Program-made: the position numbers and the translations under genes
Source: a virus
IMG/VR virus record: IMGVR_UViG_3300048113_000477
Span: 1-31,057 of that record
Strand: one strand, 5' to 3'
Length of the DNA stretch: 31,057 nt
Shown here: one piece after another, positions 6,342 through 31,057 of the stretch
Layout of the letters: each line of letters begins with the position of its first letter
Position numbering within the stretch: position 1 is the stretch's first letter
The notes under the pieces: generated by a model
Told to the model about the DNA's origin: nothing
Database searches by the model: none
Seen by the model: the letters and a program-made list of their open reading frames with translations, nothing else

Positions 6342-7861
6342 TATTTCATCCTATTCCAAAAACTTTGTTTCCCCTGTTTGGGTTTCCGTGTAAATATATC
6401 AAAGTCCCGCTTCATAGTAAACGGTTTAGCGGTCTTGTTATTTCCGAGGACTTCACGGCCTTCACCACCACCAAGCATTAAGTATTGTAAAGCATCATGT
6501 ATATGAGAGAACCTATTCTTATCGGGCTTGTCATCGTAACGCTCGCCGGACACCTGCATACGCCGATACCCATAGCCACCATCAAAACCTTTGATCAACT
6601 CCTTGCATCGCGGGTCTATTAAGATACCCGACTTGCCCTCAACCAAACGGTTAAGTGTGCCAGCCACAGCCTCAATACGCAAGGAAACATCGTTGGATTG
6701 TGCTGGACGCGCAGTAAGACCAGCACCCCGAAGCACTTGAAACGGAGTGCTTTCATCCGTTTGCGCGCGGAAGTCACCAGCAGGGTCACCAATAATATTT
6801 ACCTCACACCCACTATAGCGTGTGGCAATCTCCTGCCTAAGTAACTCTGCAAACCGCACGATGCCCATGTCAAAAGCAACAATTTCTTGAAGTATCAACC
6901 AGCGACCACGAACCCGCTGACCAAACACAGCAGCAGGAGTAAGCCCAAAGTCAAGACCAATAAAGACCGGAACTCCAGCAGCGACAGGTATTTCTTCTTT
7001 AGCGATGTGTAAGTCTGGTGCAAACATTTGATATACTGGCTTCCCATCATTTATCTGTCCTAGCTTATTCATAACATAGACATCAATCCAGCTTTTAGTC
7101 TTACCCCTGATAAGGTTGGGGTAGTAGCTCTTCATCATGTTCTTTTGATTCTCTGCTTGCTTGTTAGGCACATAGTCTTGGATAGAGCCTTCTTTATCTT
7201 TCTCTTCTACCATTCCTGCAGGTTGTGTGTAGAAACTCCAGTTGTCAGGCTTCACCATCATACGCGCTTCATCAGCAGAAATATGGTCAGGGACAGGAAC
7301 TTCGCCAGACATAATAGGCCACCAATGGTCTTCTTCTGGGGCATTGGTATCAGCAATCACGCCAGTCCATGTGGGGCCTCCATCTCGCATAGAGGGGAAA
7401 CGACCAACACGCATGGTGCAAGCGTCAATGATTGACTTAGGCAATTCCCTCGCCTCGTTAATCCAAATGCCAGTCAACTCCAATGACAGAAGTTTCTTTA
7501 CATCCTCTGGTCTATCGAGAGCAAGAAAGATAACCTCAAGGTCTAGGTCGCCTTGCTTAATGTGATGCGTATAGGGGACTGACCATTGAAACCTTCCCCA
7601 CTGGTCTTCGGGAAACCAGTCAAGCCAAGTCTTAATAGTTGTAGTTCTTAGCTGTGGGTTGGTGTTACGAATGATTGCCCAGCGAGAACGGCGTATGCCA
7701 TCATCATTCTTTTGCTGTGCTAATGCCCTGCGAAATACTTCAACGCAGCAGCCCACAGACTTACCAGAACCAACAGGGCCGCGAATACCACGAAAGAAAG
7801 TATCATCTTTCATAAACTCCTTTAGGACATCGCCATCCGGCTTATACTTAAAGTTCGTCAA
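6341..7861 (-). CDS. Terminase large subunit
   Basis: This 506-aa two-domain packaging motor is clear. The ATPase has Walker A 'GPVGSGKS' (28-35) and Walker B 'GIWINEARE' with Glu136. The nuclease domain has the RNase H-like aspartates in 'IGLDFGL' (D304), 'IIGDPAG' (D359) and 'HIHDALQY' (D456). It cuts DNA and drives it through the portal. The start is a TTG at 7861, overlapping the upstream gene by 14 nt. There is no ATG before residue 17, and residues 1-16 look like the family N-terminus ('YKPDGDVLKEFM'), so the TTG start with translational coupling is the best reading. TerS lies about 2.7 kb upstream, not adjacent. Confidence 0.97.
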   Translation of the reverse strand: MTNFKYKPDGDVLKEFMKDDTFFRGIRGPVGSGKSVGCCVEVFRRALAQQKNDDGIRRSRWAIIRNTNPQLRTTTIKTWLDWFPEDQWGRFQWSVPYTHHIKQGDLDLEVIFLALDRPEDVKKLLSLELTGIWINEARELPKSIIDACTMRVGRFPSMRDGGPTWTGVIADTNAPEEDHWWPIMSGEVPVPDHISADEARMMVKPDNWSFYTQPAGMVEEKDKEGSIQDYVPNKQAENQKNMMKSYYPNLIRGKTKSWIDVYVMNKLGQINDGKPVYQMFAPDLHIAKEEIPVAAGVPVFIGLDFGLTPAAVFGQRVRGRWLILQEIVAFDMGIVRFAELLRQEIATRYSGCEVNIIGDPAGDFRAQTDESTPFQVLRGAGLTARPAQSNDVSLRIEAVAGTLNRLVEGKSGILIDPRCKELIKGFDGGYGYRRMQVSGERYDDKPDKNRFSHIHDALQYLMLGGGEGREVLGNNKTAKPFTMKRDFDIFTRKPKQGKQSFWNRMK

Positions 7862-8042
7862 TTTTATGATCCACGCCGACTTTGATTAGACGCTCAACCA
7901 CATCAGGGGCGATAATCGAGATAAGCTTGTCAGCTTCATAGTCAGTGCAGAACTCTTGGGGGTGATGCTTGAGGTGAACCTTCTTAACTATGTTGCGTAA
8001 GACTCGACGCTCTTGCTCACTAATTGCGTGTAGAAAACTCAT
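7848..8042 (-). CDS. Small conserved phage protein upstream of TerL
   Basis: This is a 64-aa soluble helical protein starting 'MSFLHAISEQERRVLRNIVKKVH', then 'FCTDYEADKLISIIAPDVVERLI'. Similar small ORFs precede TerL in marine podoviruses as I remember them, but no function is known. Its 3' end overlaps the TerL start by 14 nt, so its translation probably drives TerL expression from the TTG codon. Confidence 0.75.
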   Translation of the reverse strand: MSFLHAISEQERRVLRNIVKKVHLKHHPQEFCTDYEADKLISIIAPDVVERLIKVGVDHKIDEL

Positions 8043-8154
8043 CTGTTACCTTCCTTACCTCCTGCATAGCTTCCGAAAAGTGCATCTTGCGCGAACTATT
8101 GTTCTGCATCTTGATTGCTTTTCTCCGAAGCTTGCGAGTCTCTTGCTTAGACAC
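8020..8154 (-). CDS. Small basic protein of unknown function
   Basis: The open frame extends to 8262, but its 5' part lies across the preceding gene. I therefore start it at a GTG (8154) overlapping the stop of that gene, giving 44 aa: 'SKQETRKLRRKAIKMQNNSS' then 'SEAMQEVRKVTDEF'. An internal ATG at 8109 with GGAG about 13 nt upstream is an alternative. No recognisable domain. It belongs to the cluster of tiny basic proteins between TerS and TerL. Confidence 0.5.
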   Translation of the reverse strand: MSKQETRKLRRKAIKMQNNSSRKMHFSEAMQEVRKVTDEFSTRN

Positions 8155-8398
8155 GACGATGTTTCCGCGTCTTTTCAGCAATACCTTTCGGTTGTTTTGA
8201 GAACTGCTTGCCAGCACGACGAGCCGCACGTTTCTTTGCGGTGGTGCGAGCATACTCTTCATCGCTCAAGCTTTTGATTGCCTTCTCTGGCAAGTAGCGT
8301 TCACCAGTAGCCTTCGGCCCTTGGGTGCTAGGCTTGCCTGATTTAGTCCGCCACTTCTGTTTTGTCCAAGCGCGAAGAGATTTTTGCGGGGCTTTCAT
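8147..8398 (-). CDS. Small basic conserved phage protein
   Basis: This 83-aa protein (about one third Lys/Arg) contains 'SLRAWTKQKWRTKSGKPST', 'GERYLPEKAIKSLSDEEYA' and 'AGKQFSKQPKGIAEKTRKHR'. The same combination recurs in many phage small proteins located near terminase genes, as I recall it. No catalytic motif is visible. The start ATG overlaps the upstream stop by TAATG. A nucleic-acid-binding or packaging accessory role would fit the charge but is unproven. Confidence 0.8.
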   Translation of the reverse strand: MKAPQKSLRAWTKQKWRTKSGKPSTQGPKATGERYLPEKAIKSLSDEEYARTTAKKRAARRAGKQFSKQPKGIAEKTRKHRRV

Positions 8399-8565
8399 TA
8401 GCTAGTATAGCCTCCACCACGAGCCTTGTATTGACGCGCGAGCATCTGAGCCTTGCGTGCAGACCATTGCCCCGGCGAGCCACCTTTGCCACCGCGTTTA
8501 ATCTTCTCGAAAAGATTCTTACGCATCCCCGGCTTGGTGTAGTTTCCGGCTTCATTAACCGCCAT
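8398..8565 (-). CDS. Small basic Gly-rich conserved phage protein
   Basis: This 55-aa protein starts at the ATG at 8565: 'MAVNEAGNYTKPGMRKNLFE', then 'GGKGGSPGQWSARKAQMLA' and 'YKARGGGYTS'. This pattern is a widespread small phage protein ('NeaGnYTKPgmRk.lf..Ik.G.kGG.pGqWSARKAQml'). It is in a different frame from a longer, non-conserved open frame over the same bases. It overlaps its neighbours by TAATG downstream and 11 nt upstream. Function unknown. Confidence 0.85.
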   Translation of the reverse strand: MAVNEAGNYTKPGMRKNLFEKIKRGGKGGSPGQWSARKAQMLARQYKARGGGYTS

Positions 8566-8803
8566 TCTCTTCTTCCTTCAACTTACGCAAGGAGGTGGGA
8601 GTGTTTTTTGTTTTTACTTTTTGAACGCGCTTCTCCGGCACATGGGCTACTGCCTTCACGCCGCGATCAGTAAGTTCCTCTTCCGTGAAGAGACGAACAC
8701 TATCAGTGGTGAACGACTTGCCTGAGTGAGGGCGACCATCAGGAAGAACGAAATAATCTTTGCTGATGTATTCCGAACCATCAATCTTATAAAGCTTGCT
8801 CAT
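8555..8803 (-). CDS. Small unknown protein
   Basis: 82 aa beginning 'MSKLYKIDGSEYISKDYFVL', with 'SVRLFTEEELTDRGVKAVAH' in the middle and a Lys-rich tail. The opening resembles short phage proteins that describe an 'entry/field' beta segment, but I cannot name a family. Coupled to the upstream gene by ATGA and overlapping the downstream gene by 11 nt. Confidence 0.7.
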   Translation of the reverse strand: MSKLYKIDGSEYISKDYFVLPDGRPHSGKSFTTDSVRLFTEEELTDRGVKAVAHVPEKRVQKVKTKNTPTSLRKLKEEENGG

Positions 8804-9209: not shown

Positions 9210-10311
9210 CTAACTCTTCCTTATAGCGCGTGTGATACACATCACCACGCCACTCAAACTCTTCATTGCCAGCACTGCGATTGCGCGCAAAGGCTTGTGA
9301 GAATGTTAAATCCTCTGGCTCTGCTGGCTTTATAGTTTCAAACGCTTTACTTACCGCGTCTTTGGCTTGAGCCAAACGATCTGTGCTTAACGCAGCAACT
9401 GCAAGGCGAGGACGCTCAACATCAAAGTCAACATCAACATCAAGTATATCACCAAAGTCCACATCAATGCGGGGGACATTAAAGTCAACATCAAACCCAT
9501 TGGCAATCTTGTTGGAGATGTTATAGCCAGTATTTACAACTCTAGCCTGTAGATCAGAAACAAACTCAGGAAGGTCTGGCATCTCTGGGAAGTCAACTTC
9601 TGCTAGGTCAACCATCTCAGGAACTTCGGGCAGAGCAGCAACAAAGCGATCAATACCCTCACGCATAATAGCGTTAAACTCATAAGGAGTTTGCTTATCC
9701 AATAAACTCCCTCCAGCAAGCAAAGTATCAGAAACAGTATCGTAAGCAGCACGGGCAAACTTAGCGATATAATCAGTGTCTAATTTGCTGCCGCCTTTGG
9801 GAGGGATAGTCCCTGATAAAGAAAACTTATAGGTCTGCTTTATATCTTGAGCATCATACACAGCTTGGGAGTAATCATCTTTAGCCTTGCGACTCTTGGC
9901 AGACTTAGAGCGATCAAAGTCATACGGATCATTAGGAATAATAAACCCACCATCCGGCGAGTCCTGAAAGCGAAAGCCTCCAACAGAAGTAAACATTTCA
10001 AGAACAGGGTCAGTAGCAGACTCGGTATAGAGTTCCCAGAAGTCTCTCTCTGCCCTTTTGCCCTTATAAAAATTTTCGGGACGATCACCGGAAGCCATAG
10101 TGGGATAGTCTTTATACTCAACGTAATCACGCCCGGCCTTACGCGCATTAGCAACAGCCTCACGCAAGACATCCTTTGCGCCATCATCTAGCAAAGAAAG
10201 GTTCATATCTACTTGGCTGGCATACTCAGCACCAAGCATCTCAGTGATCTTATTCCCCAGTATGAATCGAGCATAAGCAACACCGTTAGCTGGGAGTATC
10301 TTGAAAGCCAT
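9199..10311 (-). CDS. 370-aa protein with Asp/Val-rich repeats and C-terminal WRG motif
   Basis: I do not recognise the whole protein. The N-terminal half (1-130) is mixed alpha/beta with 'DSPDGGFIIPNDPYDFDR'. Residues about 225-305 are rich in Pro, Asp, Val and Phe ('EVPEM', 'EVDFPEMPDLPEF', then 'DVDFNVPRIDVDFGD' and 'DVDVDFDVERP'), forming short DVDF-type repeats. The last 35 residues hold 'FSQAF.RNRSAG' and 'FEWRGDVYHTRYKEE', close to a C-terminal tag ('F..AF...R..G...F.W.Gk.Y.T..k.e') that recurs on phage virion proteins. It is first in the operon after TerS and starts at ATG with AAGG upstream. A virion role is likely; function unknown. Confidence 0.8.
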   Translation of the reverse strand: MAFKILPANGVAYARFILGNKITEMLGAEYASQVDMNLSLLDDGAKDVLREAVANARKAGRDYVEYKDYPTMASGDRPENFYKGKRAERDFWELYTESATDPVLEMFTSVGGFRFQDSPDGGFIIPNDPYDFDRSKSAKSRKAKDDYSQAVYDAQDIKQTYKFSLSGTIPPKGGSKLDTDYIAKFARAAYDTVSDTLLAGGSLLDKQTPYEFNAIMREGIDRFVAALPEVPEMVDLAEVDFPEMPDLPEFVSDLQARVVNTGYNISNKIANGFDVDFNVPRIDVDFGDILDVDVDFDVERPRLAVAALSTDRLAQAKDAVSKAFETIKPAEPEDLTFSQAFARNRSAGNEEFEWRGDVYHTRYKEELDVA

Positions 10312-10914: not shown

Positions 10915-11133
10915 TTCTTTTATTTCCCTTTCTTCACCTCTGCTAGATTGTCGCTTGCACATAATCCTATAAGCGGCACGAAGCGCGCCGCATAAGCGGA
11001 GTTTAAGAGGGTTCGTCAAGAGAAATCAAGAGAGAAAGAGAGGAGGAAGGCAAGAAAGCAATAATCTTTCAAGGAGACGAAACAATGTTGCGCAAACGGG
11101 GTAAACAAAACAATATCATTACACACTTTATTA

Positions 11134-11162
11134 TTGACGCTGATAAGGTTATCCCCTATATT
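11134..11162 (+). promoter_or_regulatory. Early sigma70-type promoter
   Basis: TTGACG (11134-11139), exactly 17 nt, TATATT (11157-11162): 5/6 at each hexamer, in an AT-rich setting. The spacer holds the dyad GATAA-GG-TTATC (11142-11153), an operator-like element. Transcription would start near 11169 and give a leader of about 30 nt containing AGGAGGT (11183-11189) before the ATG at 11199. Confidence 0.75.
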
Positions 11163-11169
11163 ATACACA
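11161..11169 (+). promoter_or_regulatory. DnaA box on the early promoter
   Basis: TTATACACA is a perfect match to the bacterial DnaA-box consensus TTATNCACA. It overlaps the last two bases of the -10 hexamer and reaches the expected start point. TTATCCCCT at 11149-11157 is a second, 7/9 match, 12 bp upstream in the same orientation. The phage itself encodes a DnaA domain IV protein 2.3 kb downstream. Confidence 0.65.
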
Positions 11170-11198: not shown

Positions 11199-11630
11199 AT
11201 GCAAATCGAATTTAACTTTGAGACAGCGCAGCGCAATCGACTATGCGGCGCCGCGACCAATCGCCTGCCATGCTGTGGCCTTTACGCATTAAGCAGCCAG
11301 TTCGATGTCGACATCCAGTCGGTGTATGATTCGATGGCTCAAATGTTCGACAAAAAGAAAAACTGGAAAGGTCGCACCCATAATTCTCAGCGCCGCGCAT
11401 GGATAAGCGAAAACGGTCACGAATGGGAAAGGGTAAAGGGTCAGAGAAATAAACAGGTTCTCACCGCAATCAAGAGCCTTGACCCTAATGAAACCTATGA
11501 CATCGAAACAGGCCAGCACTGCCTTACTTATCGCAATGGCCTTCTCATCGACCAATACGAAACCAAATCACCAGAGGCACACGGCAGCCGCAAGTTGCGT
11601 GTTCGCCTCATTCATCGAGTTATTAAATAG
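11199..11630 (+). CDS. First early protein, putative papain-like cysteine peptidase fold
   Basis: 143 aa from the ATG at 11199, preceded by AGGAGGT at ideal spacing. The pattern fits small phage papain-like proteins: a Cys at the N-terminus of a helix ('LPCCGLYALSSQFD', C25/C26), a helical segment with 'DIQSVYDSMAQMF', then 'NWKGRTHNSQRRAWI', and later 'GQHCLTYRNGLLIDQYE', where H107 and D118 stand as the His and Asp/Asn of a catalytic triad would ('gH..av.dG.i.D'). This is inferred from spacing alone. As the first gene behind the strongest promoter it would be made immediately after infection. Role could be host takeover. A 38-residue upstream extension (ATG at 11085) is possible. Confidence 0.75.
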   Translation: MQIEFNFETAQRNRLCGAATNRLPCCGLYALSSQFDVDIQSVYDSMAQMFDKKKNWKGRTHNSQRRAWISENGHEWERVKGQRNKQVLTAIKSLDPNETYDIETGQHCLTYRNGLLIDQYETKSPEAHGSRKLRVRLIHRVIK

Positions 11631-11639
11631 GAGTAGATA

Positions 11640-11861
11640 ATGACACAATCAGTCATCAAATCAATCAGCCGCTTGCAGAATAGCAAGGTTGGAAACCCAC
11701 GCTTTCACATTGAGATGGAAGACGGAACAAAAGCCGCCACGCTTTCTAATGCTGGCTGGGCTTATTCAATCGTGCCGCACGCATGGGAGGGGAAGCGGTG
11801 CAAGTATGAAGTCAAGGAATATAAATCAGGCTATCGCGTATTTGATAGCGTAGAAATTTAA
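11640..11861 (+). CDS. Small early protein of unknown function
   Basis: 73 aa, with 'SKVGNPRFHIEMEDGTKAAT' and 'NAGWAYSIVPHAWEGKRCKY', which looks like a small beta-barrel. GGAG lies 6 nt before the ATG, and the gene follows the preceding stop by 9 nt. I do not recognise a family. Beta-rich early proteins of this size often bind host enzymes, but nothing here shows that. Confidence 0.75.
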   Translation: MTQSVIKSISRLQNSKVGNPRFHIEMEDGTKAATLSNAGWAYSIVPHAWEGKRCKYEVKEYKSGYRVFDSVEI

Positions 11862-11874
11862 AGGAGTAGAATCA

Positions 11875-12156
11875 ATGAAACTATCACGCCAACATTTTGA
11901 ATTCATCGCAGATGACATTGCACCCCTGCTAGAGAAACCAACCAGCATTGAGGTCATAGCTGACAAGCTGGAAGACACCAACCCAAACTTTAACCGCGAG
12001 ACATTCACGCAACGCGCCTTGAAGAATTGGGAAGCGGTAAACATTCCCGCCGAACATATCGCAACGCTTGATGGATTGATTGAGCAAATCAAAGACACGC
12101 CACGGCAAGGCTTGGCTGCGTCAATCATGCAAAAGAAAGCCGAGGCCGCACAATGA
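11875..12156 (+). CDS. Small early helical protein of unknown function
   Basis: 93 aa, predicted helical: 'LSRQHFEFIADDIAPLLEKP', 'SIEVIADKLEDTNPNFNRET', 'FTQRALKNWEAVNIPAEHIA'. Short repeated helix-loop elements resemble small HTH or adaptor folds; no motif can be named. AAGGAG stands 9 nt before the ATG. The stop overlaps the next start by ATGA. Confidence 0.75.
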   Translation: MKLSRQHFEFIADDIAPLLEKPTSIEVIADKLEDTNPNFNRETFTQRALKNWEAVNIPAEHIATLDGLIEQIKDTPRQGLAASIMQKKAEAAQ

Positions 12157-12272
12157 AACTAGGTCGCGACATGATACGGGACGAACTGCACCGCCAAAGC
12201 CTCAACCGATGGCAATGGCGCAAAAGAAAATGGCAACGTTTAATAAATACTATTCTTTTTTGGAGGTCATGA
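12153..12272 (+). CDS. Tiny basic coupled ORF
   Basis: 39 codons beginning in an ATGA overlap with the preceding gene: 'MKLGRDMIRDELHRQSLNRW', then 'QWRKRKWQRLINTILFWRS'. It is rich in Arg, Lys and Trp. Its end overlaps the ribosome site (TGGAGG) of the next gene. The overlap and the absence of any other gene in this 117-bp gap favour it, but no family is known. Confidence 0.45.
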   Translation: MKLGRDMIRDELHRQSLNRWQWRKRKWQRLINTILFWRS

Positions 12273-12273
12273 A

Positions 12274-12459
12274 ATGAATTGGAGACGCACAATCGGGGTG
12301 TATATCGAAGCCCTAGAGACAGGCAACAAGCAGCAAGCAGACGCTGCGGCCTGTGAATTGATGGTCATTGCAGACCATTTGAACAAGCTGGAAGTCAAAT
12401 ATCCTGACATGATAGACGAGACACCCAGCAAAGTAGTTTACCCAAACGAGTGGAGATAG
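12274..12459 (+). CDS. Small early protein of unknown function
   Basis: 61 aa: 'MNWRRTIGVYIEALETGNKQ', then 'ADAAACELMVIADHLNKLEV'. Two helices likely. GGAGG stands 8 nt before the ATG. The start follows the preceding stop by one base. No recognised domain. Confidence 0.65.
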   Translation: MNWRRTIGVYIEALETGNKQQADAAACELMVIADHLNKLEVKYPDMIDETPSKVVYPNEWR

Positions 12460-12463
12460 AACA

Positions 12464-12808
12464 ATGAACGCGGAAGACATGCACGAATTCATGCAAGAGG
12501 ACGGTCATTATCAACACCTGCCAAGCTTTACAACATTGGCTAAAATATTTAATGCCTTGCAAGAGGTAACTGGCAACAAACTCAACGGCAACGAAGGATT
12601 TTATGCCGAGCATCCGCCGGTCAGCCCATCAGTCTTGATGCACACACTAGAGAACGAGGAAGGCCATGACATTTGGCGCATCGTCCAGCCCCATGAATAT
12701 GAGGCAGCAGCCAAATACGCAAATGTAAGCGCGGCATATGCAGAGGAATGGGCGATTGAGTTTTGCGATGGCGACGAAGGAAGAAGCTGGGCGGACTTGG
12801 AGGACTGA
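12464..12808 (+). CDS. Small acidic early protein of unknown function
   Basis: 114 aa, acidic, starting 'MNAEDMHEFMQEDGHYQHLP'. The C-terminal half has 'YEAAAKYANVSAAYAEEWA' and ends 'DGDEGRSWADLED'. The strong negative charge is reminiscent of DNA-mimic-type phage proteins, but there is no specific evidence. The upstream TGGAG serves as ribosome site. Unrecognised. Confidence 0.75.
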   Translation: MNAEDMHEFMQEDGHYQHLPSFTTLAKIFNALQEVTGNKLNGNEGFYAEHPPVSPSVLMHTLENEEGHDIWRIVQPHEYEAAAKYANVSAAYAEEWAIEFCDGDEGRSWADLED

Positions 12809-12809
12809 C

Positions 12810-12983
12810 ATGAAAAAAAGAAAGATAGACAAGCAGGGACAGCCAGCAAAATGCGACATCTGTGGCGAAGTAAGCCACCAATTTGTTTGCCTGTTGGTTA
12901 GTCCCGACCCTGTAGAACATGAGACATGGTGCGACCCCTGTTACACCAAAGCACAAACGGAGAAACAAAATGATTCACTATAG
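12810..12983 (+). CDS. Small zinc-ribbon-like protein
   Basis: 57 aa from the ATG at 12810, which has GGAGG upstream; the open frame extends to 12738 only through the preceding gene. A CxxC pair ('KCDICGEV', residues 15-18) and a second one ('WCDPCYTK') 26 residues on fit a zinc ribbon. The ligands are clear, the function is not; such small proteins in phages bind nucleic acids or host proteins. Confidence 0.7.
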   Translation: MKKRKIDKQGQPAKCDICGEVSHQFVCLLVSPDPVEHETWCDPCYTKAQTEKQNDSL

Positions 12984-13131
12984 TATTGCAGAGTGGTGCA
13001 GCTATTGGCTGGTGATTGAGATTGATGAGACTCAAGAAGAAGTAACGGCAGAAATTGTAATGGGCGGAGACGCTGACACAACTTATGAAGACTGCGAAGA
13101 ATGGATTCACCAACAATATGAGGCCGGATAA
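12970..13131 (+). CDS. Small acidic early protein of unknown function
   Basis: 53 aa from the ATG at 12970 (GGAG upstream): 'MIHYSIAEWCSYWLVIEIDE', then 'EVTAEIVMGGDADTTYEDCE'. Its beginning overlaps the zinc-ribbon gene by 14 nt and its stop shares a base with the next start (TAATG). I do not recognise it. Confidence 0.65.
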   Translation: MIHYSIAEWCSYWLVIEIDETQEEVTAEIVMGGDADTTYEDCEEWIHQQYEAG

Positions 13132-13478
13132 TGACCAGCAAGAGTAAAGCAAAAGGAACGTATCACGAGAATTGGTTCGTGAAACTGTTCAAGGAGTGGG
13201 GCTTGCCAGTCAAACGCCAGCCCCTATCTGGCGCGCTTGGAGGAGAATATTCGGGCGACCTAGTCATCAACTTAAATGGCCGGGACTACATTGCCGAGGT
13301 GAAATACCGCAAAGAGAAAGGTTTCCCCTCGCCATTCTCGGTCTTGAAAAATCGAGATGTTGCCCTGTTCAAACTGGGAAAGGGGGAAGAAGGCTCACCC
13401 AAATGGGTGCTGATTGTGCCTGATAGAATTGTAGAAGAACTAATGGAGAAAGAAAATGAACATGACAATAACGATTGA
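13131..13478 (+). CDS. PD-(D/E)XK nuclease, Holliday-junction-resolvase-like
   Basis: 115 aa. Family-like order: Glu13 in 'KGTYHENWFVKLF', 'SGALGGEYSGDLVINLNGR' with Asp43, and 'DYIAEVKYR' giving E56-x-K58. This spacing fits archaeal Hjc-like resolvases and related phage nucleases, which cut branched DNA. Conservation of 'gsG......GDl......i.EvK' is visible. It overlaps the DnaA-domain gene by 23 nt, so both are probably made together and act in replication or recombination. A simpler DNA-repair nuclease role cannot be excluded. Confidence 0.78.
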   Translation: MTSKSKAKGTYHENWFVKLFKEWGLPVKRQPLSGALGGEYSGDLVINLNGRDYIAEVKYRKEKGFPSPFSVLKNRDVALFKLGKGEEGSPKWVLIVPDRIVEELMEKENEHDNND

Positions 13479-13872
13479 AGCAGACAAACAAGAGACCTAC
13501 TCGGTCAAGAGTTTAGTCCGAGCAATATGCGAAAACTTTGGTGTCGAGCAAGACCTATTGCTAGGCAAGCGGCGGGTTGGTTTTGTAATGGCTGGTCGCC
13601 ATGCCCTGTATTATCTGGGCTATCGCAACACAGCACACACAACCACAACACTGGGCGATTATTTGGATCGTGACCATACAACTATCCTGCACGGGCTAAA
13701 GAAATGCGAATCTCTTATGGAGCAAAATAGTAACTATGCTTTCAAGGTAGAGCAAACTCACTTGCTTGCATTGCAGTATGAAATCAAACGGCGAGATGGC
13801 TTGGACAAACTAAAAGCCGAGGTTCAAGAGATGGTTGAACGCTTTCAAATGGAGAAACTCAATGGACTTTGA
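13456..13872 (+). CDS. Stand-alone DnaA domain IV (DNA-binding) protein
   Basis: 138 aa. Residues about 15-85 follow the C-terminal domain of bacterial DnaA: 'VKSLVRAICENFGVEQDLLL', 'GKRR', 'RHALYYLGY', and the signature 'DRDHTTILHGLKKC' (71-84; consensus 'RDHttVlhA..ki'). Domain IV alone binds DnaA boxes. The AAA+ domain is absent, so it cannot melt DNA by itself; the remaining C-terminus is helical. It might steer the host replisome to the phage, or block host DnaA. A perfect DnaA box lies on the phage early promoter. GGAG stands 7 nt before the ATG. Confidence 0.85.
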   Translation: MNMTITIEADKQETYSVKSLVRAICENFGVEQDLLLGKRRVGFVMAGRHALYYLGYRNTAHTTTTLGDYLDRDHTTILHGLKKCESLMEQNSNYAFKVEQTHLLALQYEIKRRDGLDKLKAEVQEMVERFQMEKLNGL

Positions 13873-14392
13873 GCAAAGAGAAGCACTGATTCACGAACAC
13901 TTTGTTCGCAAGATGGCGACGATGTATCTGCCGCCAAACAATGTGAAGCAGAGTGACGCATCAAAAAAGATGTATGGAGAAGAGATACGCAAGGCGGTCA
14001 ACCAACGATTGAGCAGCGACATACCCAATGCCGATGTCTTCAATGACTTGCTCGGCAAGGTATGGGATAGATGCGTGGCAGCGCATGACTTCCGCATCTG
14101 GTTTACGCCTCACTTGGTTGCCAAACATGCAGCCAAAGTAAATGCCGAGTGGCAGCAGCGTAATACAAAAGCAAACAAATTGTTTGAGATAGCTGGGCAA
14201 GCACCCGAAGAACAACCACGCCCGAACAAACTTGACCCTGCCGGACAAGGCTGGACAATCGAGAAGTGTGATGCAGCTATCGAGCAAACCAAGAAAGAAC
14301 TGGGCAACAGCCACATGGCAAAAGTGCTGTGCCGCATACCAGAAAAAGCAAAAGAACGGCTATTAAATGCTGGACAAACTGATACGAACTGA
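13862..14392 (+). CDS. Unknown protein, possible replication accessory
   Basis: 176 aa from the ATG at 13862 (TGGAG upstream; the open frame runs 9 codons further up inside the preceding gene). It starts 'MDFEQREALIHEHFVRKMAT' and contains 'VFNDLLGKVWDRCVAAHDFR' and 'NAEWQQRNTKANKLFEIAG'. Almost all helical. No nucleotide-binding motif. It stands where small phages often place a helicase loader or primosome protein, directly after the DnaA-domain gene and before the exonuclease. That is context only. Confidence 0.8.
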   Translation: MDFEQREALIHEHFVRKMATMYLPPNNVKQSDASKKMYGEEIRKAVNQRLSSDIPNADVFNDLLGKVWDRCVAAHDFRIWFTPHLVAKHAAKVNAEWQQRNTKANKLFEIAGQAPEEQPRPNKLDPAGQGWTIEKCDAAIEQTKKELGNSHMAKVLCRIPEKAKERLLNAGQTDTN

Positions 14393-14418
14393 CTTAATTT
14401 GTATTGAAAGGAAGGTAA

Positions 14419-15240
14419 ATGAGTAGAGATAACGAAATCAGAAAAGCATCTATCGGCGGCAGTTGTGCCTTGCGAATCATGGACGGTGATTGGCACGACC
14501 TTTGGCTAGAGAAGATGGGCTTGAAGAGTGGTGTTGACCTGTCCGATGTCTTGCCTGTTCAGCTTGGCGTTTGGACTGAGGAGTTTAACATCAAGTGGTT
14601 CTCAAAGCACATGCAAGTCGAGTGCTTCAAAGACCCCAACGCAGCCACGCATGAACAACGCTATCACTACAAGTGGGACGGTATCCCCTGCCGAGCAACG
14701 CTTGACGGGGAGTTTATGATGCGCGGTGAAAGATACGGCTTGGAGTGCAAGCACACAAATGACAGAGCCACCATCAATACCCAGCTTGAAAGATACATGC
14801 CACAGCTACAGCTTTACCTAGAAATCTCTGGGGTGAAGGCAATGTATTTCGCAAACATCTTTGGCAATGGTCGCTATGAATATGTGAAGGTTGCAAAGAA
14901 TGAGGAATACATTCAGACAATGCTCGAACATCTCAAAGAGTTTTGGGGTTATGTCGAGCGTAAAGAGGAGCCGCCGCTATCAATGCCGCACTTCTCTGCT
15001 GGCATAGACAGGATTGCAATCAACGATATGGTGGCGCGTGACGCAAGCAGCGACAACTATTTCAGAGTGAGAGCAGCCGAATACATCAGCACAAAGGAAG
15101 CCGCGAAAGAACACGCAGCAGCCGGGAAAGAATTAAAAGCAATGGTCGGGCTAGATGAACGCGAGGTCTATACCGATGAACTTAGCATCAAACGAGACAA
15201 ACGTGGATCGTTACGCATCAACATCAAGAAAGGAAACTAA
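14419..15240 (+). CDS. YqaJ / lambda-exonuclease-like recombination nuclease
   Basis: 273 aa. The N-terminal 'SIGGSCALRIM' and 'VQLGVWTEEFNIKWF' (E54/E55), 'ATLDGEFM' (D96), 'GLECKHTN' (E109-x-K111) and 'YMPQLQLYLEISG' (Gln129, Gln131) make up the YqaJ-type PD-(D/E)XK nuclease core. It should resect dsDNA ends 5' to 3', giving 3' tails for the annealing protein two genes on. The N-terminal 'IGGS...' matches the family's 'igaSd.a.ilG' region. AAGGAAGG precedes the ATG. The C-terminus (about 215-273) is charged and family-specific. Confidence 0.85.
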   Translation: MSRDNEIRKASIGGSCALRIMDGDWHDLWLEKMGLKSGVDLSDVLPVQLGVWTEEFNIKWFSKHMQVECFKDPNAATHEQRYHYKWDGIPCRATLDGEFMMRGERYGLECKHTNDRATINTQLERYMPQLQLYLEISGVKAMYFANIFGNGRYEYVKVAKNEEYIQTMLEHLKEFWGYVERKEEPPLSMPHFSAGIDRIAINDMVARDASSDNYFRVRAAEYISTKEAAKEHAAAGKELKAMVGLDEREVYTDELSIKRDKRGSLRINIKKGN

Positions 15241-15241
15241 T

Positions 15242-15409
15242 ATGATTAAACGTTATCGCATTTGCTTTGGCAAAAGCCATGAAGAACTTGCCGAAGATGT
15301 TAATGAATACATTCAATATAACTGGCAACCATTTGGCAGCTTAATTGATGATGACAATGGCTGCACTCAAGCTATGGTTTTATATGAAAATGGGGACAAG
15401 GCGGAGTAG
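15242..15409 (+). CDS. Small protein, DUF1737-like
   Basis: 55 aa from the ATG at 15242 (AGGAAACTAAT upstream). 'YRICFGKSHEELAEDVNEYI' and 'WQPFGSLIDDDNG' follow the DUF1737 pattern ('Y.ii.g.....l...V...i..GW.p.Ggl.v'). Members are tiny, of unknown function and often sit beside phage replication genes. One base after the exonuclease stop. Confidence 0.65.
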   Translation: MIKRYRICFGKSHEELAEDVNEYIQYNWQPFGSLIDDDNGCTQAMVLYENGDKAE

Positions 15410-15447
15410 AAAACGCCCTGCCCCCGCTGTCGAAAGGAGGTAACAGC

Positions 15448-15744
15448 ATGACCGATTATACAGCATCACCATTGATAAGTGAAGAGGCCGAGCCTCTTAT
15501 CCACCTAATAGGAAATGAATACCAGCTTGGCTGGCGTTCAGTGTGGCTTCACACTCCAGATGAAGCAGTGCGGATTGAATACCGCAACAGCAGACTTGTT
15601 CTAACAGTAGTGCGAAAGGAGAAACAGCATGACAGTGAACAACCTAGCCCCCAACGCAGCGAGGGCAGCAAACAAACCGACGAACAATATGGAACTATGG
15701 GAGAAGGTGTCCCCATCGGACTCAGCTTACCTGAAGCCGGTTAG
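15448..15744 (+). CDS. Unknown protein overlapping the annealing-protein gene
   Basis: 98 aa: 'ISEEAEPLIHLIGNEYQLGW', then 'EYRNSRLVLTVVRKEKQHDS', then a polar tail. AAAGGAGGT 7 nt before the ATG is one of the best ribosome sites here. The last 116 nt overlap the start of the next gene in another frame; the polar tail encoded there looks like overprinting. Unrecognised. Confidence 0.6.
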   Translation: MTDYTASPLISEEAEPLIHLIGNEYQLGWRSVWLHTPDEAVRIEYRNSRLVLTVVRKEKQHDSEQPSPQRSEGSKQTDEQYGTMGEGVPIGLSLPEAG

Positions 15745-16117
15745 CTTTGGGTCACGTTCTTTTACCAGCATTGACCCAATGTATCAGGTTCGAGAGGCCA
15801 CACGCGCTTTCGGGCCGGTGGGTCAAGGTTGGGGGTGGCATTCCCAAACAGAGACAATCACTATGGCGAATGGTGATGTGGCGTTTCTTGCACACATTAC
15901 AGTTTGGCATGGCAACGCACACAACAGCTTCGGGCCGTTCACTGGTTGCAGGACTTTCTATAAGAAAGACCGCATTGCAGAAGACGCACCCAAGATGGCT
16001 GTCACAGATGGGCTGACCAAGGCATTGTCGCACCTTGGATTCAACGCCGATGTGTTCCTCGGTGAACACGACAACAAGTATGCGGCAGATAGTAAAGGCG
16101 TAAAAGGAGAATGGTAA
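15629..16117 (+). CDS. Rad52/ERF-type single-strand annealing protein
   Basis: 162 aa. 'YQVREATRAFGPVGQGWGW' (a 'f.pyG.GWg' motif) and 'DAPKMAVTDGLTKALSHLGF' followed by 'NADVFLGEHDNKY' are typical of phage annealing proteins of the Rad52/Sak/ERF group. They coat the 3' tails made by an exonuclease and anneal them. It lies one gene after a 55-aa protein and one unknown gene downstream of the exonuclease and next to an SSB-like gene, which agrees. AAGGAG stands 8 nt before the ATG. Which branch (Sak3, ERF) cannot be decided here. Confidence 0.78.
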   Translation: MTVNNLAPNAARAANKPTNNMELWEKVSPSDSAYLKPVSFGSRSFTSIDPMYQVREATRAFGPVGQGWGWHSQTETITMANGDVAFLAHITVWHGNAHNSFGPFTGCRTFYKKDRIAEDAPKMAVTDGLTKALSHLGFNADVFLGEHDNKYAADSKGVKGEW

Positions 16118-16491
16118 TGAGCCAGACTTACGACAAAACTGATAGCGGAGCAGTATTCCCCCCGCGTGATAACCACAAGATGATTCTGACAGGCAAAGCC
16201 AACAATGATGGTCGTGACTCTCAGATGGTAGTAACCATGTCAACGCTGCCTGATGGTCGCAAGATTATGGATGTCTATGAAAAGGTCGGAACTCTTTTCG
16301 AAAACGAGAAGAAAGGTGAAAATCCAAACTCGCCGGATTACACCGGGCCGATGGGTAGCCGCCGAATCGCCGCATGGCGTAAGACCAAAGATGACATGGC
16401 ATATATGTCTCTTTCATTCAGCGACAAACAACAAGGTGGTAACAATGCAGAAGCACGTAGCAAGCCAGTGGACGACAGCATCCCCTTCTAA
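16117..16491 (+). CDS. Single-stranded DNA-binding-like protein
   Basis: 124 aa. The C-terminus 'PVDDSIPF' closely resembles the SSB acidic tip (DDDIPF) that recruits host recombination and replication proteins. The body contains 'HKMILTGKANNDGRDSQMVV', 'DYTGPMGSRRIAAWRKTKDD' and 'AYMSLSFSDK', which recalls DUF736-like OB folds. AAGGAG is 8 nt before the ATG at 16117 and only 2 nt before an upstream ATG (16111), so I use 16117, in a TAATG overlap with the annealing-protein gene. Confidence 0.72.
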   Translation: MSQTYDKTDSGAVFPPRDNHKMILTGKANNDGRDSQMVVTMSTLPDGRKIMDVYEKVGTLFENEKKGENPNSPDYTGPMGSRRIAAWRKTKDDMAYMSLSFSDKQQGGNNAEARSKPVDDSIPF

Positions 16492-16660
16492 GCTACTGAC
16501 CATCGAAGAGGTGGGGGCGGCACTGTCCGTCCCCCCTCAAGATGTGAAGAAGTTATGCCGCAAGCACAGTGTGGCAGTGGTCAAGATAGGCCACAAGATT
16601 AGAATGACCCTCAAGGACTACGAAGAATTAGTCGGGAAGATGACAACATATTATGGATGA
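16445..16660 (+). CDS. Small helix-turn-helix (excisionase/MerR-like) protein
   Basis: 71 aa from the ATG at 16445, preceded by AAGGTGG. It overlaps the SSB-like gene by 47 nt. 'LLTIEEVGAALSVPPQDVKK' is a classical excisionase-type winged-helix opening, followed by 'KHSVAVVKIGHKIRMTLKDY'. It could act as a regulator or a DNA-bending factor. The frame is open further upstream, but those codons fall inside the SSB gene and lack a ribosome site. Confidence 0.65.
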   Translation: MQKHVASQWTTASPSKLLTIEEVGAALSVPPQDVKKLCRKHSVAVVKIGHKIRMTLKDYEELVGKMTTYYG

Positions 16661-16994
16661 ACTAACAGCATGGCAGCAAAGAGCAATCCAAGCAGAGGGC
16701 AAGCTGCGCGAGATTGCATCTATGCCAAACGATTCAGTTGGTTGGAAACAAATGAGGGCAGCGACAGCAATGAAAGCCCTTGAAGAAATGGATGTGCCGG
16801 AAAACATTCTTATCTATATCCGACAATCAAACGACCCGCAGTATCCGGCGCAGCTATGTGTCCGAGATGATACAGTTGATCCCTCCTACAATGTATGGGG
16901 CATGACCCCTCGCGCCTTGTATAACATGGTGCGTATTGGGGTGGGGCTGATGTCACAAGAAAAGTTTTTCAATAATGCACACCACTCTGAATGA
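16653..16994 (+). CDS. Small protein of unknown function
   Basis: 113 aa. N-terminal helix 'MDELTAWQQRAIQAEGKLRE', then 'VPENILIYIRQSNDPQYPAQ' and 'NVWGMTPRALYNMVRIGVGL'. No known motif. Overlaps the preceding gene by 8 nt and the next by 20 nt, so translation is likely coupled. Confidence 0.65.
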   Translation: MDELTAWQQRAIQAEGKLREIASMPNDSVGWKQMRAATAMKALEEMDVPENILIYIRQSNDPQYPAQLCVRDDTVDPSYNVWGMTPRALYNMVRIGVGLMSQEKFFNNAHHSE

Positions 16995-17487
16995 AGCAGA
17001 GAAAAGACTCTGCCTCTTTGTAGCGCGTTCCCGTAACGCTGCTGCTCGTGAGGTCGCTCCAGAAGATGCACTAAGGGTATCTCCCAAAGACCCTATCTTC
17101 GTTGATTACGAAGGTGCGATGGGTGAACTGGCTTTCTCCAAAATGCTAGGCGTTTACCCAACAGAAATCTTCGAGATCTATCACCGCTCCTCCCTCAATG
17201 GTGAAGATCCGGGCGACCTCACATTTAATAACTTAGTCATCGATGTAAAAACAACCGTTCACAAAAACGGCAGATTAGTTTCAATGAGAAAAAATCCTGC
17301 TATCAATATGTTTGTGTTGATGACTGGACAAGATGGGGAGTATGACCTTGCTGGTGGTATGTGGTCGGCAGAACTCTACCTCCCCTCGCGCTATGGTATG
17401 CCACCAAACTTTAGAAAAGAGTGCTACAGCGCAACGCAAGATGAGTTGCTAGACCCCAAACAAGTAATGGAATCAATCACCTTCTAG
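16975..17487 (+). CDS. Putative PD-(D/E)XK nuclease-fold protein
   Basis: 170 aa, last early gene. 'VDYEGAMGELAFSKML' (Glu51), 'GDLTF' (Asp81) and 'LVIDVKTT' (D90-x-K92) reproduce the order E, D, (D/E)xK of the restriction-nuclease superfamily. The same arrangement is found in small phage and restriction-like nucleases that cut DNA or resolve junctions. The ATG has only a weak purine stretch before it. The stop TAG shares the CTAG tetranucleotide with the stop of the opposite-strand gene. Which substrate it cuts is unknown. Confidence 0.72.
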   Translation: MHTTLNEAEKRLCLFVARSRNAAAREVAPEDALRVSPKDPIFVDYEGAMGELAFSKMLGVYPTEIFEIYHRSSLNGEDPGDLTFNNLVIDVKTTVHKNGRLVSMRKNPAINMFVLMTGQDGEYDLAGGMWSAELYLPSRYGMPPNFRKECYSATQDELLDPKQVMESITF

Positions 17488-20722: not shown

Positions 20723-23130
20723 TATTCAGCCTCCAGTGCGGCAACTTTAGTTTCCAGTGTTTCAATCTTGGTGATTGCCTCTTGCAGGGCTGCGGTCAGC
20801 AACGGCACAAGTTTGGCTTGGTCGATGCCCTGATATTCTGGATTACCATCCTCATCAACTGCATCTTTTTCGCCGTGAACTGCCTCTGGCACAACCGTTT
20901 GCGCTTCGTGTGCAATAAAGCCATCGACAGTAGTGTCAGCATCAGCAATAAAGTTAAAGCGTGATGGGTTGAGTTGCTTAACACGCTCAATGCCATCTGT
21001 AATTCCAGTGACGTTTTCCTTGAGGCGGTAATCAGAAGTGGTGTTGTAGGCCACGCTTGTGCCAGTGGATGTAATACTACCCTTCTGATTGCCTCCGCCC
21101 GTCCCCCCAACACGAAAGTCACACAGATAACGAGTCCCGCTTGTAGCGGTGTGTGCAACAGTTAAGGCACCATAAGTAGCGTTGCTGTTTTCTACCATCA
21201 TACCAAATTGAGAGCCGCTAGTTTTTGCGTGAAGTTTTGCTAATCCGCTTGTCAGCCCCACCAGCACATTCCCGCTGCTGTCGATGCTGACCTTCTCCGA
21301 ATTATTATAACGAATTTGAAAACTGTCGCTTGCGCTGGCGTCTTGCTGTAAATTCCAGTAGTTGCCGCTGTCACCCAAAAGTTTAAGTGTCGGGTCGGCA
21401 GTTGCACCCGTACATTCAACAGTTACACCGCCAAACGAAGGGGTAACGACATGAAGAGTATCCGCAGGCGAACTCGTGCCGATGCCTACGCGATTGTTCG
21501 TGCTGTCAACATACAGTGTGTCAGTGTCAACAGTCAGGTCGCCATTGACTGCGACATTACCACTAAACGTGCCGCCCGTGCTGGCAGCAACCGTGTCAGA
21601 CACAGTAAAGGATTTGAACGCAATGACATTCAACTCGTCACCCGCAGCAGCACCTACAGTCAACACAATGCTAGTGCCGGAGGTAGCCGTATAGTCAGTG
21701 CCGTTTTCCAGCACAATGCCATTCAAGGTAACAATCAGGTTAGCCGCTGTGTAAGACAGCGTAGCCGAGTTATCGTCAGAACCAGTAAAGGTAGTCTGCC
21801 CAACTGTTGCCGTGTAGTTGTATTCTAAGATAGATGCTGTGCCAGCAGACGAGGCAGCAATCCAGTTAGCACCATCATATACGCGCATCTCATTTGCAGT
21901 GCTGTTGAAGTATAATGCGCCTTCCACCAAAGCGTCACCGTCATTATCGACTGTCGGGTCGGCTGTAAAACTTCCTAAATAAGTGTCATCGAAATTATCG
22001 AAGGCAGCAGCCGCAGCAGCAGCACTGTTAGCAGCCGCCGTAGCAGAGCCAGAGGCAGCAGTAGCAGATGTAGCAGCATTGGTTGCGCTAGTAGCAGCGT
22101 TGGTTTCAGACGTAGCAGCAGCAGTGGCAGAGGAGGAGGAGTTGGTAGCTGATGTAGCGGCGTTACTTGCGCTGGTAGAGGCAGCAGAAGCACTTGAGGC
22201 TGCGTTGGTTTCGCTCGTGCCAGCATTAGTTTCGCTGGTTGCCGCAGCAGTAGCACTATTAGCCGATGCAGTAGCACTCGTAGCAGACGCAGAGGCACTC
22301 GTGGAGGCCGCGCTGGCTGAGTTTGAGGCATTGGTAGCCGAGGTTGCAGCATTAGTCTCAGAGGTAGCCGCATTGGTTTCTGAGGTGGCAGCAGCAGTGG
22401 CAGACGCAGCAGCTTCGCTGGCCTTAGTTGTAGCAGTCGTGGCGTTGGTGGCTGCGTTTTGAATGGCAGTCAGGTTGTCTGTAACGTTTTGCATATTGGT
22501 CGTTTGACCAGCAACAGTCGTTACGTTTGCATTGTTAGTTGCCACAGTTGTTACATCGCTAGAAATGCCAGCAACAGTAGTTACGTTAGCAGAGATGCCA
22601 GCAACAGTAGAAATATCAGCCTTAATCTGAGCCACAGTGTTTGTATCGGCAATGGTCGGGCCGACCTCAACAGCACCAGTGGTTGCATTAAACGCAAGAA
22701 CCGTTCCCTTCCTAGTGTCCTTATTGGCAAGGACGAGGGTAGCGGATGTATCAGAGTCAGAAAGACGAAGGCCACGATCAGCCAAGTCCTTCATGTCTGC
22801 AATCATAGCAACGACTTTATCCAGTTCGGTGTTCAGTGACGCGACTTGGAATGGGCCGGAGGTGGGGAAGTCAGTTACACGTTCAAGGGTAACATCACGA
22901 GTAATAACGACAACATCATTGAGAGTAGCACCAGTTACCAGTGTAATGCTGCCAGTCGAGCCGCTACCACCAGTTACACTGTAATGCGTTGTCAGCGTTT
23001 GAAGAGTGTCATTGACATACACATTCAAGTCTGAGGCATCAAAGAACTCGAATGGGACTGTAAATGCAGTCTGCCCTGCCGTAGCAGTATAGGAGATACG
23101 AGGGCTGTTATCGCTAATTAAAATAGTCAT
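20722..23130 (-). CDS. Tail fibre with T7-type N-terminus and S74 chaperone domain
   Basis: 802 aa. Residues 1-150 follow the T7 gp17 N-terminal attachment domain ('ISYTATAGQTAFTVPFEFFD', 'DVVVITRDVTLERVTDFPTS', 'LNTELDKVVAMIADMKD'). Then come TVAGIS.NVTTV repeats (about 165-210), an Ala/Ser/Thr coiled shaft (231-378), and beta domains. The C-terminus is an intramolecular chaperone of the peptidase S74 type: 'SDYRLKENV' with the candidate cleavage serine S699, 'GFIAHEAQTVVPEAVHG' and a coiled 'ITKIETLETKVAALEA' end. The chaperone trimerises the fibre and is then cut off. AGGA stands before the ATG. Confidence 0.9.
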   Translation of the reverse strand: MTILISDNSPRISYTATAGQTAFTVPFEFFDASDLNVYVNDTLQTLTTHYSVTGGSGSTGSITLVTGATLNDVVVITRDVTLERVTDFPTSGPFQVASLNTELDKVVAMIADMKDLADRGLRLSDSDTSATLVLANKDTRKGTVLAFNATTGAVEVGPTIADTNTVAQIKADISTVAGISANVTTVAGISSDVTTVATNNANVTTVAGQTTNMQNVTDNLTAIQNAATNATTATTKASEAAASATAAATSETNAATSETNAATSATNASNSASAASTSASASATSATASANSATAAATSETNAGTSETNAASSASAASTSASNAATSATNSSSSATAAATSETNAATSATNAATSATAASGSATAAANSAAAAAAAFDNFDDTYLGSFTADPTVDNDGDALVEGALYFNSTANEMRVYDGANWIAASSAGTASILEYNYTATVGQTTFTGSDDNSATLSYTAANLIVTLNGIVLENGTDYTATSGTSIVLTVGAAAGDELNVIAFKSFTVSDTVAASTGGTFSGNVAVNGDLTVDTDTLYVDSTNNRVGIGTSSPADTLHVVTPSFGGVTVECTGATADPTLKLLGDSGNYWNLQQDASASDSFQIRYNNSEKVSIDSSGNVLVGLTSGLAKLHAKTSGSQFGMMVENSNATYGALTVAHTATSGTRYLCDFRVGGTGGGNQKGSITSTGTSVAYNTTSDYRLKENVTGITDGIERVKQLNPSRFNFIADADTTVDGFIAHEAQTVVPEAVHGEKDAVDEDGNPEYQGIDQAKLVPLLTAALQEAITKIETLETKVAALEAE
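21999..22440 (-). repeat. Ala/Ser/Thr/Asn-rich shaft repeats in the fibre gene
   Basis: About 148 codons consist of short units such as 'SETNAATSATNASNSASAAS', giving many near-identical 21- to 33-bp repeats. This low-complexity shaft resembles lambda Stf-like fibres. It can expand or contract by slipped pairing, so fibre length may vary between virions of a population. Confidence 0.85.
22500..22640 (-). repeat. TVAGIS/NVTTV repeats in the fibre gene
   Basis: Four to five units of about 7-14 codons ('ISTVAGISANVTTVAGISSD', then 'VTTVATNNANVTTVAGQ') are repeated at DNA level ('ccagcaacagtagttacgtt'-like). A beta or coiled spacer between the attachment domain and the shaft. Confidence 0.7.
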
Positions 23131-29271: not shown

Positions 29272-31057
29272 TAGAAAGTCACCTCAATAACCATACCGTT
29301 TAGTTGTAAATCAAAAGGAACAGACTGACTAACTGTAACAGACGGGTCTTTTGAAATACCAATTAACCTAAACTCTTTTCTACCAGTAAACTTAGACCTA
29401 TCCAAAGAGAAATCATCGTTTACATTCCTGATAATCATATCCTTACTATTGACCGATGCAGACAAAGTATCCTGCAAATCAAGAGTAACCATATCAATTT
29501 TGCGCGGCGCAGCAGTCATCGGGCCGCCACCCATCAACGCATCAATAGGCATTGTCTGTAGGATGGGGGTAAATTGATAGCCGATGTAAGCTGTAGTAAT
29601 TTCCTTAACGCTAGATACATCAACCTTCCCAGAGGCCACAGTAAACTCGCCAATGTAATCTGTGCCGCTAACCACGCGAACCACAGCACCATCAGAGAAC
29701 TGGCTGCTAACGTCGAACACGCCATCATCGTTAACGATTGAGCTAAACTCATCGCAGTAATCCATCGGCATCTCTTCGTTAAACTTCTCAAGGTAGTAAC
29801 GATTAGTGCCATCACCCTGATCGCGAACAGCAATGCAATACACATTGCGGTCAACAGCGCAAACACTGTGGAACTTTCCCGATGTATCCCACAGCATCCA
29901 CCCAGCGCGTTGATCGCCGCGAGAGGAGTAGAAGACAGACATAGTGCCATCATTGTTAATCAAGAAGCAGTATGACTCAGCCCGGTCAAAGCCACCCTTA
30001 ATACTTGCAGACTGGATAGGAGAACGCATCAGATGGGTAGCAGTCACAGACACATTCTCTGTGTTGTAGGCTTGCTCCACCTCACTATACACATAAGACC
30101 CCAGCATCTTGCCGGAGGCTTGCGTATAGAGGGTTGCGCCATCAAAAGGCTGTGGTCGCATATAAGACGAGCCGTAAGGTGTCTGACGCTTAATTATGGC
30201 GTTTGCAGGGGTAACAGGTCTATCAGTGAAAGCAGGAATGAATGACTCAGAAGAAGCAGAGAATATCTGTAGGTCACGATTAACCACAAGATGACGGATA
30301 TGAGAGAACTCACCAAAGTTAGAGTTAAGATCAATGGCATCACTGTCCGCCCCCGTGCCTATGTCGAAGTTAAAGAAGTTGGCAGACTTGGAAGCCCAGA
30401 CATGACCGGGCTGTGCTGTCGTGCCAGCAAACCACAGGCGACCTTCGTGGAATGTTACAGCAGCAGGGTAGCCGCGAACAGCAGAGTAAGACTGCTCATA
30501 CCACTCTGGGGTAGCAGCACCGCTTGAGATTTCAACAGAACCGCCACCGATGGCAGAAGAAGAGGCATTAGACCCAGCAGTGTATTCAAATGTATTAAGG
30601 TCAATAACCTTGCTTACAGTTTTTGTTCCCTCCATGTGAGAGGCGTTAAGACCTCCCAAAGCCCCCACGCGATCAATAACAAAAACGTCACCAACACCCA
30701 TACCGTGAAGAGGCATAGTAACTTGAACAGCACTAGTGCCAGCAAACACCTCAATAGAATCTGGCGCAAGGCGACGAAGTATCGTGCCAGTAATGTCCAC
30801 CCTAACTTGAGTTGCGCTAACATATGTTTTTATCTCACAAGGCGTATTACCAATTAGCAGATACGAACCAACGTGACCTGATACAAAGTAACTACTGCTT
30901 GCAGTTACAAGAACATTCGTGCCGGACGTAGCCGCAGGGTCTAGTGTAACACCACCCTTTTGAAATTTGTAGTAGGGGTGTGTTGGAGAATCATCATTAC
31001 CATTGTCCTCAAACTCAAACACCTCAGAGACAAAGGTCTTCAACCCAGTCCGGCGAA
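29271..31057 (-). CDS. Tail tubular protein B (gp12-like), C-terminal part
   Basis: This is the remaining part of the 743-aa nozzle protein, running off the right edge and continuing at 691-1. An apparent ATG at 31043 is just residue 154 of the complete protein. Beta-rich segments: 'HGMGVGDVFVIDRVGALGG', 'GYPAAVTFHEGRLWFAGTTA' (a conserved nozzle motif 'GyP..v.f.q.RL.faGt'), 'FFNFDIGTGADSDAIDLN' and 'NRDLQIFSASSESFI'. The 3' end overlaps the next start by TAATG. The stop is intact at 29271. Confidence 0.93.
   Translation of the reverse strand, partial: RRTGLKTFVSEVFEFEDNGNDDSPTHPYYKFQKGGVTLDPAATSGTNVLVTASSSYFVSGHVGSYLLIGNTPCEIKTYVSATQVRVDITGTILRRLAPDSIEVFAGTSAVQVTMPLHGMGVGDVFVIDRVGALGGLNASHMEGTKTVSKVIDLNTFEYTAGSNASSSAIGGGSVEISSGAATPEWYEQSYSAVRGYPAAVTFHEGRLWFAGTTAQPGHVWASKSANFFNFDIGTGADSDAIDLNSNFGEFSHIRHLVVNRDLQIFSASSESFIPAFTDRPVTPANAIIKRQTPYGSSYMRPQPFDGATLYTQASGKMLGSYVYSEVEQAYNTENVSVTATHLMRSPIQSASIKGGFDRAESYCFLINNDGTMSVFYSSRGDQRAGWMLWDTSGKFHSVCAVDRNVYCIAVRDQGDGTNRYYLEKFNEEMPMDYCDEFSSIVNDDGVFDVSSQFSDGAVVRVVSGTDYIGEFTVASGKVDVSSVKEITTAYIGYQFTPILQTMPIDALMGGGPMTAAPRKIDMVTLDLQDTLSASVNSKDMIIRNVNDDFSLDRSKFTGRKEFRLIGISKDPSVTVSQSVPFDLQLNGMVIEVTF
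30812..31057. repeat. Right copy of the terminal overlap
   Basis: Same sequence as 1-246, with G at 30939, A at 30963, C at 31023 and G at 31035 where the left copy has A, G, T and A. All four differences are transitions at third codon positions of the nozzle gene and do not change the protein (Asp, Phe, Glu, Thr). Confidence 0.93.

Follow-up and report, generated by a model that had tools for sequence, protein, structure and literature searches.

What does a phage do with the DNA-binding domain of DnaA when the rest of the initiator is missing? The question is raised by a 31,057-nucleotide viral DNA (IMG/VR record IMGVR_UViG_3300048113_000477), the whole of which is referred to here as the window. 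An original prediction placed a DnaA domain IV protein without the ATPase part in this DNA and paired it with a DnaA box on its own promoter, suggesting a replisome-recruiting origin, an autoregulator, or a decoy for host DnaA. Our preferred reading, to which we give a probability of about 0.57, is that this protein, hereafter DnaIV, is a pared-down initiator that binds a pair of boxes in the promoter, represses its own operon, and serves replication.

A stand-alone DnaA domain IV in a small phage

The record closes with a repeat of its own beginning, about 246 bp long (positions 1-246 and 30812-31057 are identical at 242/246), and the window is thus circularly complete, close to one full circle, with four end mismatches due to strain variation or assembly. 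The virion genes form a T7-like set on the minus strand, and the early cluster lies on the plus strand at 11.2-17.5 kb. Judged by its terminase, the closest annotated relative is Pelagibacter phage Hodr (66%). Scans revealed recombination genes encoding a PDDEXK/resolvase, a YqaJ/RecE nuclease, and a Rad52/Erf-like annealing-type protein. No polymerase, primase, or helicase was found among the window proteins scanned, in agreement with the earlier description of a phage without polymerase genes. Rfam and tRNA searches of the window gave no matches. Within the tail-fibre gene, positions 21980-22460 hold an Ala/Thr/Ser-rich array of 21-bp (7-residue) repeats. The early cluster and the genes around DnaIV are as follows.

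11199..17487, plus strand: early gene cluster (recombination, initiator, and small unknown genes), from ORFs and family matches; read from the early promoter
13131..13478, plus strand: PDDEXK/Holliday-junction resolvase-like gene, flanking the initiator slot on the left (PHROG 23036, E=7e-12)
13456..13872, plus strand: DnaIV, 138 aa, stand-alone DnaA domain IV, with an HTH domain at residues 19-83 and a long C-terminal helix at residues 92-136
13862..14392, plus strand: 176-aa helical protein, candidate λ P-like helicase loader by synteny; its start codon overlaps DnaIV in relatives
14419..15240, plus strand: YqaJ/RecE-like exonuclease, flanking the initiator slot on the right (PF09588, E=2e-5; PHROG 434, E=1e-24)

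DnaIV matched PF08299 (Bac_DnaA_C) with E=2.1e-11 and 44.1 bits against a curated cut-off of 31.5 bits, residues 19-83 corresponding to profile positions 3-68 of 69, which confirms the predicted domain. A profile built from 16 phage homologues (25-93% identity to the window DnaIV) matched 1J1V, the structure of E. coli DnaA domain IV on a DnaA box, with E=3e-19. The AF2 model of DnaIV has a pLDDT of 88.3 and matched the DnaA-DBD:DNA crystal structures 3PVP and 1J1V in Foldseek with an rmsd of 1.0-1.3 Å. The AAA+ domain III is absent: the protein has 138 aa, and nothing was matched outside domain IV by Pfam or by the AlphaFold model. A sigma-like C-terminal DNA-binding domain is likewise absent, the C terminus being one long helix with no family match.

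Besides M1, only R40, R48, D73, H74, and T75 are invariant in the 16 phage homologues. In the 1J1V alignment, R40, D73, H74, and T75 fall on E. coli DnaA R399, D433, H434, and T435, which are listed box-contact residues (PMC7561715, PMC5742627), so that DnaIV is expected to have kept box recognition. The DnaIV gene showed no clear run of synonymous conservation. A scan of genome contigs returned distant cellular DnaA-type genes among the matches listed.

DnaIV thus shares with bacterial DnaA domain IV (1J1V, 3PVP) its fold, aligned base-contact residues, and TTATnCACA-type sites. Unlike bacterial DnaA, it lacks domains I-III, and with them the ATPase, the filament, and the DnaB-recruiting domain I; it also has a C-terminal helix of its own, boxes with A or C at position 7, and a fixed 12-bp pair.

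The box pair and the early promoter

The promoter of the early cluster and its two boxes are arranged as follows.

11134..11162, plus strand: early promoter, TTGACG-17-TATATT, with box 1 in the spacer and box 2 over the -10 element and start region
11149..11157, plus strand: box 1, TTATCCCCT, a 7/9 match within the promoter spacer
11161..11169, plus strand: box 2, TTATACACA, overlapping the 3' end of the -10 element and running to the start

Both boxes are present where the original prediction had put them, 12 bp apart. It had taken the perfect box as the signal and the 7/9 match as a side note, and here our results differ. Single DnaA boxes are not in excess genome-wide (2 TTWTNCACA observed versus 3.77 expected), and a lone TTATACACA in 31 kb is at chance level. 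The significant signal is the direct pair with 12-bp spacing, of which box 1 is one half. The two boxes stand head to tail and form the only 12-bp direct pair in the window that scores at least 13/16; the pair score was reached in none of 1000 shuffled versions of this promoter region. As for the claim of a single strong early promoter at the box, its score is the joint best within 10.3-18.3 kb, but promoter-like matches there are no commoner than in shuffles (11 versus 9.6).

We collected relatives by protein search and sampled 14 early promoters, all from phages with full-length DnaIV. The direct 12-bp pair occurs in 14/14, down to 34% DnaIV identity, in both orientations, and in several sequence contexts that cannot be aligned with one another; one promoter (L185) has three boxes in a row. 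Among all spacings between 9 and 40 bp, direct and inverted, the direct 12-bp one stood out with a mean best score of 14.2/16, compared with at most ~11.6 for all others. The pair score was reached by 0/1000 shuffles in 13/14 promoters and by 2/1000 in L180.

The 27 boxes read TTATnC(A15/C12)CA. Because TTATNCACA served as the scoring target in their detection, the consensus is somewhat biased towards it; the free choice at position 7 was not imposed by the scoring. Neither L164 nor L169 has any canonical box, and the L164 pair consists of TTATACCCA twice. In every locus that has it, the refined-consensus pair lies solely at the early promoter (L180 falls below threshold), against a chance expectation of 0.075 per shuffled 31-kb window. 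No such pair was found in the loci without full-length DnaIV (L166-168, L184, and Hodr).

DnaA genes have been noted in small marine phages (PMC6811365). The SAR11 phages (HTVC010P-related, HTVC203P, and Skadi) resemble the window phage in having a stand-alone Bac_DnaA_C domain and in being small and lytic, with a nuclease and an annealing protein (PMC6811365). Their DnaA-like proteins differ from DnaIV in a different N-terminal extension and are ~27-30% identical to it over the domain, and the SAR11 stretches examined have no 12-bp promoter pair. The parts examined of the phages with a DnaA domain IV outside the sampled set (HTVC203P, Skadi-4, ppBjS10J-1, ctOK67, and Mae-JY35) contain no such pair, and the circuit is therefore taken to be limited to this clade. 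A collection-wide pattern scan for the pair yielded mostly chance occurrences among the matches listed.

The position of the pair within the promoter suggests what its occupation would do. In window-type promoters it covers the spacer, the -10 element, and the start; in L016, L158, L170, L180, and L019, the reversed pair starts right after the -35 element and fills the gap to the -10 element, which box 2 overlaps. The candidate operator lies over the core promoter (-35/-10) of its own operon in 14/14 promoters. Because the boxes are wedged between or over these elements, an occupied pair should block RNA polymerase, and autorepression by DnaIV, one of the roles first suggested, is well supported by site geometry.

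Two head-to-tail DnaIV molecules would probably bind the TTATnC[A/C]CA boxes, 12 bp apart, in their own core promoter. Early transcription would supply DnaIV, which on accumulating would occlude the -35 and -10 elements and repress its own operon. Such negative feedback would resemble the control of dnaA by DnaA, which is known to regulate its own gene, or that of iteron initiator genes by their products. Counting against our reading, DnaIV is approximately the tenth gene of the early cluster, 2.3 kb from the promoter.

Two further blocks lie near the promoter. An AT-rich block, TTGCGCAAAC-N5-AAACAAAACAAT, is located at 11088-11114, ~45 bp upstream of the box pair. It is common to the promoters of the window, L007, L169, L171, and L185, is partly present in others, and is absent from those of L016, L158, L160, L170, L180, and L184. 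In L016, L158, and L170, the promoter is directly preceded by a hairpin-plus-T stretch and has no AT-rich block next to it; the pair therefore follows the promoter, not an AT-rich origin-like context. At 10988-11031, adjoining the terminase small subunit gene, a block of ~40 bp (AAGCGGAGTTTAAGAGGGTT...) is almost invariant in relatives, even in those with unalignable promoters, and is possibly a packaging site or leader.

The initiator slot and replication

In relatives without DnaIV, initiators hold its slot. The slot before YqaJ contains, in L166 (which lacks DnaIV), an HTH_36 protein matching "replication initiation O-like" families at 1e-11 and, in Hodr, an HTH protein that aligns with the C-terminal portion of replication initiation families. 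In ctOK67, the gene next after that for DnaA-IV encodes a replication-initiation protein. Since O-like and replication-initiation proteins hold the same slot in relatives without DnaIV, DnaIV is probably a replication initiator that does the job of the O-like proteins.

The protein encoded at 13862-14392 (AF2 pLDDT, 83.5) had λ P as its first-ranked structural match, but the match was weak (Foldseek E, 0.28; VIA Z, 8.1), and for helical models such a Z may arise by chance. Sequence-profile comparison found no match between this protein and λ P, and none with its L166 equivalent. The modelled product weakly resembles a λ P-like helicase loader. As in the λ O/P module, the early operon would have an initiator gene, here with a candidate helicase-loader gene behind it; it differs in that the DNA-binding domain of DnaIV is of the DnaA type, no iteron array was found in the gene, and the likeness of the next gene's product to λ P is weak and one of fold only.

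DnaIV would then be a phage initiator reduced to a DnaA box-binding domain plus a C-terminal helix. Its gene fills the slot of O-like initiators in the early operon, and a putative helicase-recruiting gene comes directly after it. If DnaIV does start replication, DnaA domain IV and a helicase recruiter would suffice for origin function. This would bear on how far the AAA+ machinery of DnaA is needed and on the way in which the host replisome is captured by phages that have no polymerase or helicase genes.

DnaIV could instead be purely a transcription regulator, acting as an early-to-late switch at the box pair, with replication started otherwise, for example by recombination-dependent priming or by an unrecognised gene. 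We regard this as unlikely, though a serious possibility. The conserved sites lie solely at the promoter, and the phage has a RecE/YqaJ nuclease and an annealing-type protein. There is also a precedent for a DnaA-like domain as a pure regulator in GafA, the gene transfer agent activator (PMC9638019). GafA shares with DnaIV a DnaA-like DNA-binding domain but is larger, carries a sigma-like domain at its C terminus, and interacts with omega; it activates, whereas the geometry of the DnaIV site predicts repression. What speaks against a regulator alone is the presence of O-like and replication-initiation proteins in the same slot of relatives, together with the failure to recognise any other initiator candidate among the proteins scanned.

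The box pair might also be the phage origin itself, at which DnaIV and the next gene's product would load host DnaB while the promoter provided activating transcription. This we consider doubtful. The pair is the sole conserved box cluster, clusters of weak boxes having no other recurrent place; the AT-rich block lies nearby in window-type promoters; and the GC skew changes sign near 11 kb. However, two boxes are few for an origin, and the AT-rich block is missing from the promoters of L016, L158, L160, L170, L180, and L184. Gene direction switches where the skew does, a confounding that led us to reject GC skew as origin evidence. Elsewhere in the window, we found no convincing iterons or tandem arrays that could serve as an origin, the repeats being in the tail-fibre and other virion genes. 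Of the replisome-recruiting origin first suggested, the initiator role is backed by synteny and slot replacement; no iteron array was found, and the sole candidate site is the promoter pair.

A single two-box site could combine both functions, as operator and origin, with DnaIV binding shutting the early promoter and nucleating host helicase loading there. This combination is speculative and improbable; if true, a single event would end early transcription and start replication without an AAA+ ATPase.

Co-variation of gene and site

Among relatives, gene and site vary in step. Loci L166-168 have neither DnaIV nor the pair. L184 encodes a 92-aa DnaIV variant without the C-terminal helix (9730-10008), and its promoter carries, in the same place as the pair, an inverted arrangement, ACATACACA-GGG-TGTGGATAA, between TTGACA and GATAAT; this arrangement holds the only full TTATNCACA match in the 15.9 kb of L184. 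It is tempting to suppose that the C-terminal helix of DnaIV may set head-to-tail binding. The DnaIV allele of L158 (3335-3739), L163, L157, and L159 is 34-35% identical to that of the window, versus 77-97% for the neighbouring genes, and the box pair of L158 and L163 is the same as that of L016. This looks like an in-place exchange of the initiator gene with site specificity retained. Sequence comparison thus strongly supports the pairing of gene and site that was originally proposed: the domain matches Bac_DnaA_C, and the site is conserved in relatives that keep the gene.

It is very unlikely that the boxes serve host DnaA, as a replication-state sensor or a decoy, with the similarity of DnaIV being incidental or DnaIV acting on the host oriC. 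TTATACACA does conform to the general DnaA box TTWTNCACA, but the pair goes with the phage gene and is absent where that gene is. The boxes with C at position 7 (12/27, nearly half) depart from the DnaA consensus, as do L164 and L169 in having no canonical box. The decoy that had been suggested finds no support, as the boxes are not enriched genome-wide and one pair embedded in a promoter does not make a titration array. Chance, by which -10 elements resembling TGTGTATAA would yield box matches as a by-product of promoter sequence, is most improbable: one box does overlap the -10 element in most promoters, but the second box, 12 bp away, is no promoter element, the effect is confined to this spacing, and shuffles do not reach it.

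The literature searched, which covers the field in part, gave no description of a conserved self-targeting pair or of initiator-slot replacement of this kind. The phage clade has kept the portion of DnaA that reads DNA, but not the ATPase, together with a conserved target of its own, and this provides an exact, testable site. As a separate observation, the early operon of L184 also encodes an ArdC-like anti-restriction protein with a zincin metallopeptidase domain (7772-8653).
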